Positions 3,139-28,126 of a stretch of 49,053 nucleotides of DNA are shown here, one piece after another. A program made the translations under genes and the position numbers. The first letter of the stretch is position 1. Each line of letters begins with the position of its first letter. The notes below the pieces were generated by a model. That model was given only the letters and a program-made list of their open reading frames with translations. It was not told where the DNA came from and searched no databases. This DNA comes from Synergistaceae bacterium (GTDB lineage Bacteria > Synergistota > Synergistia > Synergistales > Aminobacteriaceae): assembly GCA_017445205.1 (NCBI GenBank), contig JAFSUP010000101.1, positions 1 through 49,053 on the forward strand. Direction: 5' to 3'.

Positions 3139-3193
3139 TAGAAGTGAGGAGTTAGGAATCAGGAATGAAAAAAAATTTTTCTTCGTTCCTGAT
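3139..3193 (+). repeat. Heptad-repeat hairpin, copy a (carB-fic)
   Basis: Four purine-rich heptads (TAGAAGT, GAGGAGT, TAGGAAT, CAGGAAT) occupy 3139-3166, beginning 6 bases after the carB stop. Bases 3158-3169 pair with 3182-3193 (ATCAGGAATGAA against TTCGTTCCTGAT, one G-U pair), with an A/T-rich loop between. A run of T follows at once, so the element could also end carB transcription. The Fic start at 3209 has no Shine-Dalgarno of its own between the hairpin and the ATG. Confidence 0.75.
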
Positions 3194-3957: not shown

Positions 3958-3989
3958 TTCCGCGTTAAATTGCGCGGGAATTTTATTTT
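3958..3989 (+). terminator. Probable terminator after the Fic gene
   Basis: TTCCGCG (3958-3964) pairs with CGCGGGAA (3973-3980) with one bulged base and an AT-rich loop, followed by TTTTATTTT. It directly abuts the AGGAG of the symporter gene at 4007, so it could also act as an attenuator for that gene. Confidence 0.5.
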
Positions 3990-6428: not shown

Positions 6429-7536
6429 ACGAACACTCAATTTCGTATCTGTAGCTGTCGCCGTCCAGAGTTGTTGCCGTTCCTGACCATACGGTACTGA
6501 TTAACGTATTAGACTCTACGGTGATGACTACATTTTGATTTTTGTCTTCAGTGTCTTCAATTCGCCACACGCTAGTATCGACTTGTACAAGTTTCATAGG
6601 GTCTGCGGAAATATCGCGGCTGAATGTAAAATCTCCCTCGTCCATAACTCTAATGTCGCTCTCGTCCCAAGCCGTCCAACTTTGATTATAAACGACCTGG
6701 GCCGTTCCGGTTTGTGAAGTTGTGTTATTGTTCAGTGCAAGGTCCATGTTCGAAAACGTCATGTAAACATCGCTAGCAAGTCTCAATGTCAAAACTTTAT
6801 CGCTGCCCTGAGTATTGCTTGTCGCGCTGGCTGAGCTGCTGCTGTCATCGCCGGTTGAAAATTTCCAAGTGCCAGTGAGAATATCTGTTATTGTGCTTTC
6901 AGTGCTGGTCGAGTCGTCGGAGTTGTCATCAGTTGTTGCCTCGTCGCTCGTTTTAATGAACGAAGTATTTATAGTGTAACTGCAATCACTATTAAGGCCA
7001 GTGAAATATGTCGTGCCCGTAAGCTGTACATTTGCTTTTCTCGATGATGAAAGCGTAATGAGTATCGCAGGGACGCTTGAAGACGGCGAACTCAATATCC
7101 ATTCATCATCTGTAACGCGTGAAAGAACCATTTCTTGAGTCCTTGTTGTTGAAGTGTCGTCCGAATAACTTCTTATTGTGAAAGTTCCAAGTGAAGTACT
7201 TGTATTTTCGTAGCGAGCTGATGATGTATATGAATAAAATACGGTCGCGCTTGCTTCAGAGTCCGTAGTAGTGTTGTCGAAAGTTATGTCAGCAATAGAT
7301 ATTTTAAAATATTTTACAGTGTATAACAAAAGTGATTCATTATTCGCGCTCGTCGCCTTACCTGAAAAATAATCATTGTCATTGAAAAACCAATTTCCTT
7401 GTAAAGTCGAAACGATTGTTTCATGCAATTCTGACGCGTCTCCGCTCTCAGAAGAATCATCTCCGGCGCTTCCTCCGCAGCCGGAAAATAAAAAAACTAA
7501 AAGCGCCATCGCCAGCAAAAATTTTATTTTGCGCAT
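6415..7536 (-). CDS. Two-repeat lipoprotein of unknown function
   Basis: No family recognised. The N terminus MRKIKFLLAMALLVFLFSGCGG is a lipoprotein signal with Cys20 as likely lipid-attachment site, so the protein should be anchored in an envelope membrane facing the periplasm or outside. After a Ser/Asp-rich linker there are two similar beta-rich units of about 150 residues. Unit 1 starts LQGNWFF and ends SYTINTSFIK; unit 2 starts LTGTWKFS and ends YRYEIECSFRK; a Thr/Asp/Ser linker lies between. The repeated opening G-x-W and the closing aromatic strand resemble lipocalin-like or META-like barrels, but this is weak. The Shine-Dalgarno GAAGGG precedes the ATG. Confidence 0.8.
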   Translation of the reverse strand: MRKIKFLLAMALLVFLFSGCGGSAGDDSSESGDASELHETIVSTLQGNWFFNDNDYFSGKATSANNESLLLYTVKYFKISIADITFDNTTTDSEASATVFYSYTSSARYENTSTSLGTFTIRSYSDDTSTTRTQEMVLSRVTDDEWILSSPSSSVPAILITLSSSRKANVQLTGTTYFTGLNSDCSYTINTSFIKTSDEATTDDNSDDSTSTESTITDILTGTWKFSTGDDSSSSASATSNTQGSDKVLTLRLASDVYMTFSNMDLALNNNTTSQTGTAQVVYNQSWTAWDESDIRVMDEGDFTFSRDISADPMKLVQVDTSVWRIEDTEDKNQNVVITVESNTLISTVWSGTATTLDGDSYRYEIECSFRKQ

Positions 7537-18117: not shown

Positions 18118-18164
18118 TAGGAATTAGGAAGTAGGAGTGAGGAAGTAAAAAATTTCTGCTCCTA
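18118..18164 (+). repeat. Heptad-repeat element, copy b (uxaA-adh)
   Basis: Four heptads (TAGGAAT, TAGGAAG, TAGGAGT, GAGGAAG) at 18118-18145, starting 5 bases after the uxaA-like stop and in the same sense. TAGGAG (18132-18137) pairs with CTCCTA (18159-18164) across an AT-rich loop. A T-rich stretch follows. Confidence 0.75.
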
Positions 18165-19408: not shown

Positions 19409-20677
19409 TTAAAACAAAATTCCCGGAAACACCAACGGGACAAAGACAATCGCTAAGAACACAATTATTAATCCAATTAAATAAGGCACGACCGCACGAG
19501 AAATTTTTTCAAGCGGCAAGCCTGTTATCCCGGACGCAACAAATAAGTTTATCGCTACAGGCGGCGTTATCATTCCTATCGCAATCCCTACTACAAACAA
19601 AACTCCGAAGTGCATAAGTGAAACATCAAGAGCTTTAATTAACGGCAAGAACACAGGAGTTAATAAAATTATCGCCGAGGAAGTTTCCATGAAGACGCCC
19701 GCAATTAAAATAATAATTGAGATTAATAACATGATTATGTATTTATTAGAAGAGACTGACAGTACTGCTGCCGCGATTGTCTCCGGGATTTTCCAGTTTG
19801 CTAAACACCAACCGAACGGCCCCGAACACGCGATTATAATCATGATAACCGCGCTAGTTTTTGCGGAGCCCGTCATAATTTCAAAGAGTCCTTTAATGCT
19901 TAAGTCGCGATATATGAACATCGAAACGAACACAGCGTAAGCCACTGCGATAGCCGCCGCTTCGGACGGTGTAAAAATCCCGGAAAAAATTCCTCCTAAG
20001 ATTATCAACGGCATCAAAATTCCCGGCACTGCGTAAAAGAAACTTTTTAAGAATCTAGTGAACGAAAATTTTGCGCCCTTCGGATAGTTTAATCGTCGTC
20101 CTTGAACAAGCGCAATTAAAATCAAAAATCCGCCCATTATGAAGCCCGGCACGAATCCCGCTTTGAACAAACTGCTCACGCTGACTTCAGCGATAACGGC
20201 ATATAGCACCATAGGCACCGACGGAGGAATTACTACCCCAATCGTACCGGCCGCCGCGATTAATGCCGCTGAAGCATCTTCACGATAACCGCGCAATTTT
20301 AATTCTTCGATCAAGGCTCCGCCAACCGCCGCAGTCGTTGCTGCTCCAGAACCTGAAATAGCCGCGAAGAACATTCCCGCTAAAACTGAAACTATCGACA
20401 AGCCGCCGCGAATCATTCCTAAAAACGACTCGCAAAAATCTACGAGCAGTTTTGAAATTTTCCCTTTTGACAACAAGTCTCCGGCTAATATAAAAAATGG
20501 AACGGCGATTAATGAGAATGAATTACAACTTTCAAACATTCGTTGAATTATCATCATTAATTTGTTTGTTCCAAGCCCGGACACTATCACGACCGACGCG
20601 GACGTTACGATTGAAAAAGCTACGGGCACGCCGACGGCTAACAAAATTATAAAAACTGAAAATAACAACGCGGCCAT
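19409..20677 (-). CDS. dctM: TRAP transporter large permease (DctM)
   Basis: Large membrane subunit (12-13 helices) of a tripartite Na+-driven periplasmic transporter. The 422-residue length and segments such as VLAGMFFAAISGSGAATTAAVG, GVVIPPSVPMVLYAV and GIFTPSEAAAIAVAYA are characteristic of DctM. It starts immediately after the DctQ stop, with AGGAG 9 bases ahead, and is the last gene of the dctPQM run. The neighbouring UxaA-like and alcohol dehydrogenase genes suggest a sugar acid as cargo, which is inference. Confidence 0.94.
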   Translation of the reverse strand: MAALLFSVFIILLAVGVPVAFSIVTSASVVIVSGLGTNKLMMIIQRMFESCNSFSLIAVPFFILAGDLLSKGKISKLLVDFCESFLGMIRGGLSIVSVLAGMFFAAISGSGAATTAAVGGALIEELKLRGYREDASAALIAAAGTIGVVIPPSVPMVLYAVIAEVSVSSLFKAGFVPGFIMGGFLILIALVQGRRLNYPKGAKFSFTRFLKSFFYAVPGILMPLIILGGIFSGIFTPSEAAAIAVAYAVFVSMFIYRDLSIKGLFEIMTGSAKTSAVIMIIIACSGPFGWCLANWKIPETIAAAVLSVSSNKYIIMLLISIIILIAGVFMETSSAIILLTPVFLPLIKALDVSLMHFGVLFVVGIAIGMITPPVAINLFVASGITGLPLEKISRAVVPYLIGLIIVFLAIVFVPLVFPGILF

Positions 20678-21199
20678 TTATTTTTTCTCCTTTAATTCTT
20701 CAAGCAACATAACAGCCGCGTGAATGGACATTATTATCATGCTGACAGGAAGGCACATGTAAATATATTTCATCTTCACGGGAATCGCCGAAGCCGTTCG
20801 GACTTGTCGCGAACAATATAAAAATCCGTAGTAGCAAAGCACGCAGAATAAAACGAAGCATAGCGCGTGAATTAATGCTCGCAAATTTTTTTTCGTTCGT
20901 GGCGCAAATAAATCTTGAATTACGGTTATAGCGATATTGCCGTTATGACGATACACGCAAGACGCTCCCAAGAATGTTGACCAGATTAATAAAAATCGCG
21001 TTGCCTCTTCTGACCACGAAAGGGACGTGAACCACGTCCGACAAACTACCTGCGCAATCGTGAACACGACCATTAACGCAAGCATCACGGAAATCGAGAC
21101 TCCGCAAATTTTATCGATAGCGTTACTTAATTTTACAAGTGCAGTTAAAAAAAATGAGGAGTTAGGAGTTAGGAGTGAGGAGTTATTTTCGTTTTTCAT
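20678..21199 (-). CDS. dctQ: TRAP transporter small permease (DctQ)
   Basis: Four-helix small subunit that joins DctM and helps receive cargo from DctP. Typical parts are SLSWSEEATRFLLIWSTFLG (the family W-S-E-E-x-x-R motif) and a length of 173 aa. The beginning is odd: the ATG, its Shine-Dalgarno (GAGG and AGGA) and about the first 15 codons (MKNENNSSLLTPNSSFF) are made of heptad repeat copy c, so this N terminus is not ancestral DctQ sequence. No other good start is available before the first helix. Confidence 0.9.
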   Translation of the reverse strand: MKNENNSSLLTPNSSFFLTALVKLSNAIDKICGVSISVMLALMVVFTIAQVVCRTWFTSLSWSEEATRFLLIWSTFLGASCVYRHNGNIAITVIQDLFAPRTKKNLRALIHALCFVLFCVLCYYGFLYCSRQVRTASAIPVKMKYIYMCLPVSMIIMSIHAAVMLLEELKEKK

Positions 21200-21224
21200 T
21201 CCTAATTCCTCATTCCTAATTCCT
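21156..21224 (-). repeat. Heptad-repeat element, copy c (dctP-dctQ)
   Basis: Read on the minus strand, four heptads of the AGGAATT/AGGAATG type (21197-21224) are followed by a 13-base A-rich loop and four inverted heptads of the ACTCCTA/ACTCCTC type (21156-21183). The element contains the TAG stop of dctP, the Shine-Dalgarno and ATG of dctQ and its first codons. It is the longest and most symmetrical copy. In dctP-dctQ mRNA each heptad pair carries one A-C mismatch; in the opposite strand it would be G-U. Confidence 0.85.
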
Positions 21225-22206
21225 AATTGTTGTTCGCAAGTTCGGCTTGGATTCGTGAAATATAATCCGCGTATTGCGGGTAAGCGCTATAAACGCTCTG
21301 CACAGATTTTCTGAATGAATCAACATCAGGATTTTCGACGACTTCAACGCCGTGCGACTTAATCGCCGCGAGCTGTCCAGCTTCCTGATCCGCTACCCAT
21401 TGACGCTCATACTCGGCAGCTTCCTGCGCTGACTGTTCAAAAATTTTCTGCGTCTCTGCGTCAAGGCGTTTGAAAGCTTCAAGCGACATTGTAATAATCG
21501 CTGTCGAATAGCTATGGCGGTCAAGCGTTACAAATTTCTGATTGTAGTCCCAAAGTCCGTAAGAAAAAATTACATTAATCGGATTCTCTTCGCCTTCGAT
21601 TGTGTTCTGCTGCATTGCTGTGAGAGCGTCGGCCCACTGCATAGGTGTAGCATTGACTCCGAGAGCCTTAAACGTCGCTGTGTAAACTTCGTTCTCCATA
21701 ACACGGAGTTTTAATCCTTTAATATCTTCAGCGTTTGCTACAGGGCGAATTGAGTTTGTTACGTTTCTGAAACCGCGCTCGGCATACGCGAGGCCTTTTA
21801 AGTTCGCTTCTTCGAGAGTTGCAAGGAGTTCGCGTCCGATTGTGCCATCAAGAATTTTATAAGCCTCGGCGTTGTTCGCAAACAAGAACGGCATATCTAA
21901 TACGCCCATCATTTTTGAAAAATTCACGAACGGCCCGGAAGTTATAATTCCCATGTCTAACATATCCATAGTCATCGAGTCGAGCATGTCGCTCTCGCCG
22001 CCTAAGCTGCCGTTAGGATAAATTTCGATCTTGTAATTTCCGCCAGTGCGTTCCTCAACGAGGGCTTTAAATCTCTCCGCCGCAACTTGGAAAGAGTCCT
22101 GCTCATTTACAGTCGTTCCGAGTTTCAAAACTGTTTCAGCAAAAGCGCACGAAGCTGACAGCGCAAGCATAAACACTAGCGCGAGGGTTAAAAATTTTTT
22201 GTTCAT
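21223..22206 (-). CDS. dctP: TRAP transporter substrate-binding protein (DctP)
   Basis: Periplasmic binding protein that delivers cargo to DctQM. Signal peptide MNKKFLTLALVFMLALSASC with cleavage likely after AFA. The mature part has LKLGTTVNEQDSFQVAAERF, GFRNVTNSIRPVANAEDIKGLKLR (with the Arg that usually binds the substrate carboxylate) and PMQWADALTAMQQNTIEGEENP, as in sugar-acid and C4-acid TRAP binding proteins. AGAAAGG stands 13 bases from the ATG. The C-terminal stop lies inside a heptad repeat. Cargo probably an acidic sugar derivative, judged from the neighbours. Confidence 0.93.
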   Translation of the reverse strand: MNKKFLTLALVFMLALSASCAFAETVLKLGTTVNEQDSFQVAAERFKALVEERTGGNYKIEIYPNGSLGGESDMLDSMTMDMLDMGIITSGPFVNFSKMMGVLDMPFLFANNAEAYKILDGTIGRELLATLEEANLKGLAYAERGFRNVTNSIRPVANAEDIKGLKLRVMENEVYTATFKALGVNATPMQWADALTAMQQNTIEGEENPINVIFSYGLWDYNQKFVTLDRHSYSTAIITMSLEAFKRLDAETQKIFEQSAQEAAEYERQWVADQEAGQLAAIKSHGVEVVENPDVDSFRKSVQSVYSAYPQYADYISRIQAELANNN

Positions 22207-28069: not shown

Positions 28070-28126
28070 TAGGAATTAGGAGTTAGGAAGTAGGAATTAA
28101 AAAAAAATTACTCTTGAATCGCTAAT
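28070..28126 (+). repeat. Heptad-repeat element, copy d (ntpI-ntpK)
   Basis: Four heptads (TAGGAAT, TAGGAGT, TAGGAAG, TAGGAAT) at 28070-28097 start 6 bases after the subunit I stop, in the same sense. AGGAATTAG pairs with a degenerate CTAATTCTT near 28120 across a long A-rich loop. The element lies inside the V-ATPase operon and just ahead of the c-ring gene, which must be made in excess. Confidence 0.7.

Follow-up and report, generated by a model that had tools for sequence, protein, structure and literature searches.

The four-unit heptad repeats of Xanthomonas (GGGAATC) and Nostoc (GGGGA(C/T)T) lie on the coding strand at stop codons and are unexplained; with three or four G per unit they are quadruplex-capable, and the study describing them could not connect them with mobile elements (PMC4692102). 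Another seven-base unit, TAACTGA, forms dispersed intergenic direct repeats in Beggiatoaceae, which contain stops in all three frames and for which a role in translation has been proposed (PMC4679880). The palindromic elements of Rickettsia are dispersed palindromes of ~150 bp that are read in frame within unrelated proteins (PMC10969869). In the ABC importers of Clostridia, internal terminators located after the genes for solute-binding proteins set the ratios of the subunits (PMC9045158). Among the papers found, a set that covers the literature incompletely, there is no description of the heptad family reported here in Synergistota.

The closest description of the Synergistaceae repeats analyzed here is that of the heptads of Xanthomonas and Nostoc. 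The features in common are the tandem seven-base unit, the modal number of four units (80 of the 94 arrays in a sample from the genome under study, G000, and 45 of 59 in another genome of the genus, G014, with a similar mode in G008) and the location of the arms at same-strand stop codons (62 of 92 arms in G000 and 34 of 58 in G014). However, the Synergistaceae unit, KAGGARK, contains GG only and G-tracts of three or more are not encountered, and the Synergistaceae family differs further in showing filled and empty sites in sister species and documented captured start codons. Like the Rickettsia elements, the Synergistaceae palindromes are included in frame in unrelated proteins but, by description, they belong to another sequence family, and in most captures it is the start codon and the N-terminus, adjacent to a stop, that are taken over. 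The Beggiatoaceae repeats are similarly dispersed between genes, but lie upstream of start codons and lack Shine-Dalgarno character, whereas the Synergistaceae heptads follow stop codons and are rich in AGGA. As with the clostridial terminators, the hairpin described below occupies the junction between a gene for a solute-binding protein and that of its membrane partner; unlike them, it gives no terminator match, has an A+T-rich, translated stem and belongs to a TRAP rather than an ABC transporter.

The window, that is, the entire stretch of 49,053 nucleotides that was analyzed, corresponds to contig C62 in a rumen Synergistaceae draft genome of 1.92 Mb (133 contigs, 80% complete), and rumen Synergistales are the close relatives found for it. 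In the window, 21 copies of the heptad 14-mer are counted compared to 1.57 expected from shuffles, and the heptad pattern is found 410 times genome-wide, against 36 for a reversed-pattern control; the element considered here is one of hundreds of dispersed copies, which the first-pass annotation had not noticed. In the ~242 kb around the matches in G000, a census that is hence enriched for elements, 82 were located. Six genomes of the genus (G000, G007, G008, G014, G020 and G026) carry the pattern in abundance and two (G013 and G021) at trace level; the remaining sampled members of the genus and the family's other genera lack it. Beyond the family, within the order, matches were obtained only in G037 and G046, two or three in each, which is about the level of their reversed-pattern controls.

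On the minus strand of the window, the genes of a TRAP transporter follow each other in the order dctP, dctQ, dctM, and the junction of the first two is occupied by a heptad palindrome (Table 1). In the sense of the genes, the junction reads GCGAACAACAAT, the AGGA arm, GAAAAACGAAAATA, the TCCT arm and ATTTTTTTTAACTGCA; its exact form is known from the window assembly alone. The first-pass annotation had recognized here four heptads and four inverted heptads supplying the dctP stop, the Shine-Dalgarno sequence and ATG of dctQ and about 15 N-terminal residues. The repeat analysis bears out all these elements of the description, with the extension amounting to 17 codons (MKNENNSSLLTPNSSFF), the translation of the loop and the second arm, after which the native DctQ sequence resumes. 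The spacing between GAGGA and the ATG is 7 nt, exactly one heptad period, and DctP ends in ..ELANNN with the element, as opposed to ..ELAK without it.

Table 1. Features of the dctP-dctQ junction and other four-heptad arrays of the window
Feature	Coordinates	Strand	Remarks
dctP, solute-binding protein	22206-21223	minus	ORF and Pfam (DctP)
Whole element (AACAAT, four heptads, loop, four inverted heptads, T-run)	21149..21231	minus	limits relative to the empty site in L069; outer limits approximate
First (AGGA) arm, dctQ sense: TAGGAAT TAGGAAT GAGGAAT TAGGAAT	21198..21225	minus	
dctP stop codon TAG	21223..21225	minus	within heptad 1
Shine-Dalgarno-like GAGGA of dctQ	21207..21211	minus	heptad 3; predicted to be paired in the hairpin
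dctQ start codon ATG	21197..21199	minus	begins at the end of heptad 4
Loop separating the arms	21184..21197	minus	holds the G of the dctQ start codon and the next codons
Second (TCCT) arm, dctQ sense: ACTCCTC ACTCCTA ACTCCTA ACTCCTC	21156..21183	minus	inverted copy of the first arm
Element-encoded N-terminal extension of DctQ, MKNENNSSLLTPNSSFF	21149..21199	minus	17 codons; not in element-free relatives
dctQ ORF	21199-20678	minus	Pfam (DctQ)
Remainder of dctQ	20678..21148	minus	from codon 20 colinear in frame with relatives
dctM	20677-19409	minus	Pfam (DctM)
Four-heptad array	3139..3166	plus	6 nt past a stop codon
Four-heptad array	18118..18145	plus	5 nt past a stop codon
Four-heptad array	28070..28097	plus	6 nt past the stop of a V-ATPase I subunit-like gene

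The extension had also been described as not expected in DctQ, and the comparison with relatives, set beforehand as the test, agrees. In the sister species (L069, genome G008), with 92% identical DNA, the dctP-dctQ junction is empty (GCAAAATAAAAATTAAGATGAAGGCACTTGTA), the gap between the two genes is 8 nt and includes no evident Shine-Dalgarno sequence, DctP ends in ..ELAK, and DctQ begins with ATGAAGGCACTTGTA (MKALVKL; native start MKALVKLSN). The two DctQ proteins are 97% identical, only from residue 18 of the window protein onward, and the native ATGAAG is lost in the window (GATGAAG replaced by CT). Outside the extension, dctQ is strongly constrained (dN/dS 0.043). Other rumen Synergistales (L070-L075) are element-free as well, with dctQ starting at or near the native position. 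The capture by the element of the stop codon, ribosome-binding site, start codon and N-terminus is well supported by these comparisons. In a Fretibacterium genome (L148, after position 3963), the initial codons of dctQ contain a different, GC-rich palindrome, GCACTGGAGGGTGCAGGGGGACTGAAGCAGCAGTCCCCCCTGTGC; hairpins of two kinds hence occur at this position.

As read from the genomes compared, capture of a start codon or N-terminus is recurrent, with cases in MnmA, HydF, PrmC, a UPF0029 protein and GrpE. MnmA starts with MSILIAMSGGVDSS or near it in element-free genomes; G000, G007, G014 and G020 read the second arm instead, e.g., NNSSLLIPNSSLIAMSGGVDSS. In HydF, the entire palindrome is translated, as MQLGIRKEEVGSKDGKRNSSLLTPNSS, and for most of the remaining genomes of the genus homology sets in around residue 31-37. 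The protein that we take to be PrmC-like, a name given from its sequence and not from a Pfam match, carries the captured MQLGVRSEELGVNFSDSS, with homology elsewhere starting mostly from residue 20-22. A clean insertion provides the UPF0029 protein with ATG and MRSEELETQKTKS, and in G008 the frame is open onward without the insert. At the HrcA-GrpE junction, the heptads provide both the HrcA tail (NNEELGVRSEE) and the GrpE ATG; G014 has no element there. Three further sites (C45:870, C42:903 and C99:878) are likely captures as well. MurD (C38) resembles a capture but was set aside, its native start likely being downstream. Heptads are also read within genes: G014 contains genes with internal in-frame heptads (VRSEELGVRSE). 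The element had been described as a non-coding repeat captured as coding and regulatory sequence; the capture stands, but given that several copies are translated into protein, the term "non-coding" is too restrictive. Separately, two in-frame arrays (C67:5476-5503 and 6666-6693 of G000) are found within a single GTPase-like ORF (IELGMRSEDLGV and EELGVRSEEL), and in-frame heptads occur in an alanyl-tRNA synthetase-like gene of G014 (L259:15696-15724; GIVRSEELGVRSEFK).

The placement of the elements and the composition of the unit are both relevant to such captures. The stop-adjacent arms counted above start within -20 to +12 nt of a same-strand stop codon, compared to 1.7% of random positions in G000 and 1.6% in G014. 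The commonest offset is 6-7 nt past the stop codon, and the arms not near stops are mostly the far arms of palindromes. Of the 80 four-heptad arms, 79 carry stops in two or three of the sense-strand frames, which is why they end genes so easily. An ATG is present within 28 of the 80 arms, in 23 of these with AGGA or GGAG at start-site distance; given the period of seven and the AGGA in the unit, every ATG located where a heptad ends has AGGA one unit ahead. Some elements are full palindromes, and others consist of the stop-adjacent arm followed by a degenerate second arm. In the single-arm copies near stop codons in G000, for example those at C57:11368, C85:4192 and C66:1521, it is the arm adjoining the stop that is intact, and the distal one has degenerated or is lacking, which holds for recent inserts too.

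Nine element sites of G000 are empty in G008, and about as many are common to both genomes. Two inserts are accompanied by direct duplications, of 6 bp at one site (ATTAAT) and of 8 bp at the other (TTAACAAT); one of ~3 bp (TAA) is seen at a third site, and none is clear elsewhere. In being short, in carrying inverted repeats and in their absence from orthologous sites (the nine in G008), the elements resemble MITEs. Mobilization by a Y1 transposase, as in the REP/RAYT class, was rejected: the element-rich genomes G000, G007, G014 and G020 have no match to this transposase (PF01797), and across the genus its presence does not correlate with that of the elements.

The first-pass annotation had further proposed that the UCCU of the inverted arm can pair with the AGGA preceding the ATG, and that the element may thereby tune dctQ translation relative to dctP. 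Such pairing is what the predicted fold of the dctQ-sense RNA contains (-23 kcal/mol, z = -4.3): GAGGA is paired, with an unpaired probability of ~0, and the AUG is in the loop. The A+T-rich sense stem has an A-C mismatch every seven bases; the antisense strand folds more stably (-37.7, z = -8.6) because these mismatches turn into G-U pairs. A search of Rfam returned only sub-threshold microRNA hairpins, which were discarded as chance matches to the long stem.

We consider capture of the element combined with hairpin-coupled translation of dctQ to be the probable explanation of the locus as a whole. The sequence comparison shows that a short dispersed palindrome with two arms of four heptads each came to occupy the dctP-dctQ junction once the lineage had separated from the sister species (unless the latter lost it), and that it took the place of the dctP stop codon and of the original dctQ start. 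Heptad 1 now ends dctP, the AGGA heptads place the Shine-Dalgarno sequence one period ahead of the ATG, and the loop and second arm are read as the 17-residue extension of DctQ. In the mRNA, the arms are inferred to pair, hiding GAGGA and presenting the AUG in the loop. With the dctP stop at the base of the stem, the terminating ribosome should open the first heptads, and dctQ would be translated mainly when a ribosome finishing dctP opens the hairpin; the predicted outcome is dctQ translation that is coupled to that of dctP and remains below its level. The AGGA that adjoins the ATG lies at too short a distance to function, and the AGGA that is used is predicted to be buried, so that initiation of dctQ could be poor. 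On this model, it is plausible that translation of dctP tunes that of dctQ.

The strongest competitor, to which we give somewhat less than an even chance, is neutral insertion: the captured dctQ start would be used since nothing else is left, the hairpin would have no regulatory role, and the element would be tolerated only as intergenic. Consistent with this possibility, the stop-adjacent elements follow very different genes without evident common function, many copies present in one species are missing in the next, and housekeeping genes hold captures too. Tolerance alone, however, accounts neither for the nearly constant length of the arrays (four heptads in 80 of 94) nor for the sense-strand bias at stop codons.

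A role at the RNA level, in which the element is an internal terminator or a protector of the dctP 3' end that raises dctP over dctQM, as in the clostridial ABC importers (PMC9045158), appears rather doubtful. The stem is followed by eight T, and in G014 (L091, after position 766) this junction likewise holds a heptad palindrome, one that looks independent and leaves the native dctQ start intact. In addition, about one third of the clostridial dctP-dctQ junctions scanned contain a GC-rich terminator-like hairpin, which suggests that TRAP transporter operons use internal termination; these junctions include L076, L080, L082-L086, L088, L089 and others. Yet a consensus terminator scan (GC-rich stem plus T run) gave no match at the window junction, nor any terminator-like site in 20600-21700, and intrinsic termination was rejected on this account and kept as a low rival only. 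The A+T-rich stem with its regular sense-strand mismatches argues in the same direction, and the scan of element-free rumen Synergistales detected no hairpin at the dctP-dctQ junction.

Improbable, in our assessment, is a dctQ start at V38 (GTG) or M39 (ATG), which would make the element an untranslated insert that truncates the protein. Only two amino acids differ from those in the sister DctQ, at residues 28 and 37, and both positions precede codon 38; the differences hint at relaxed constraint in this segment and would also fit a downstream start, as does the Pfam DctQ match, which begins at residue 43. Against such a start, ~20 residues found in all close relatives would be dropped, the nearest GGAG is 11-14 nt away, beyond the usual spacing, and the frame of the element is open into dctQ and has a well-spaced Shine-Dalgarno sequence. 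There is no in-frame ATG, GTG or TTG between the element and codons 38-39, and a start further downstream, the outcome that would have spoken against the original claim, is accordingly not supported. Assembly error or contamination, conceivable for a metagenome-assembled genome of the draft quality given above, can hardly be credited considering that the element lies mid-contig with intact frames on both sides, that its flanks are 92-95% identical to the sister, and that the heptad family is found also in the separate assemblies G007, G008, G014, G020 and G026.

Apart from the proposal for this single locus, it is conceivable, if unlikely, that heptad palindromes in general are mobile translation-signal cassettes: a copy that lands after a stop would at once terminate one gene and initiate the following one, with the initiation site concealed by the copy's own hairpin. 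The capacity to do so would derive from the seven-base period, which is a good Shine-Dalgarno spacing, and from a unit that holds AGGA, stops and ATG. If so, new N-termini and coupled expression in operons would arise repeatedly by way of such cassettes, and the same logic could explain the four-unit heptads of Xanthomonas and Nostoc. In the pairs of sites before and after insertion, a selfish-looking repeat comes to serve as stop codon, ribosome site and start codon as well as protein sequence. The pairs also link these four-unit heptads, for which Xanthomonas and Nostoc have so far offered no explanation, with insertion at stop codons in another phylum, and make the origin and function of such heptads testable through the comparison of sister species.
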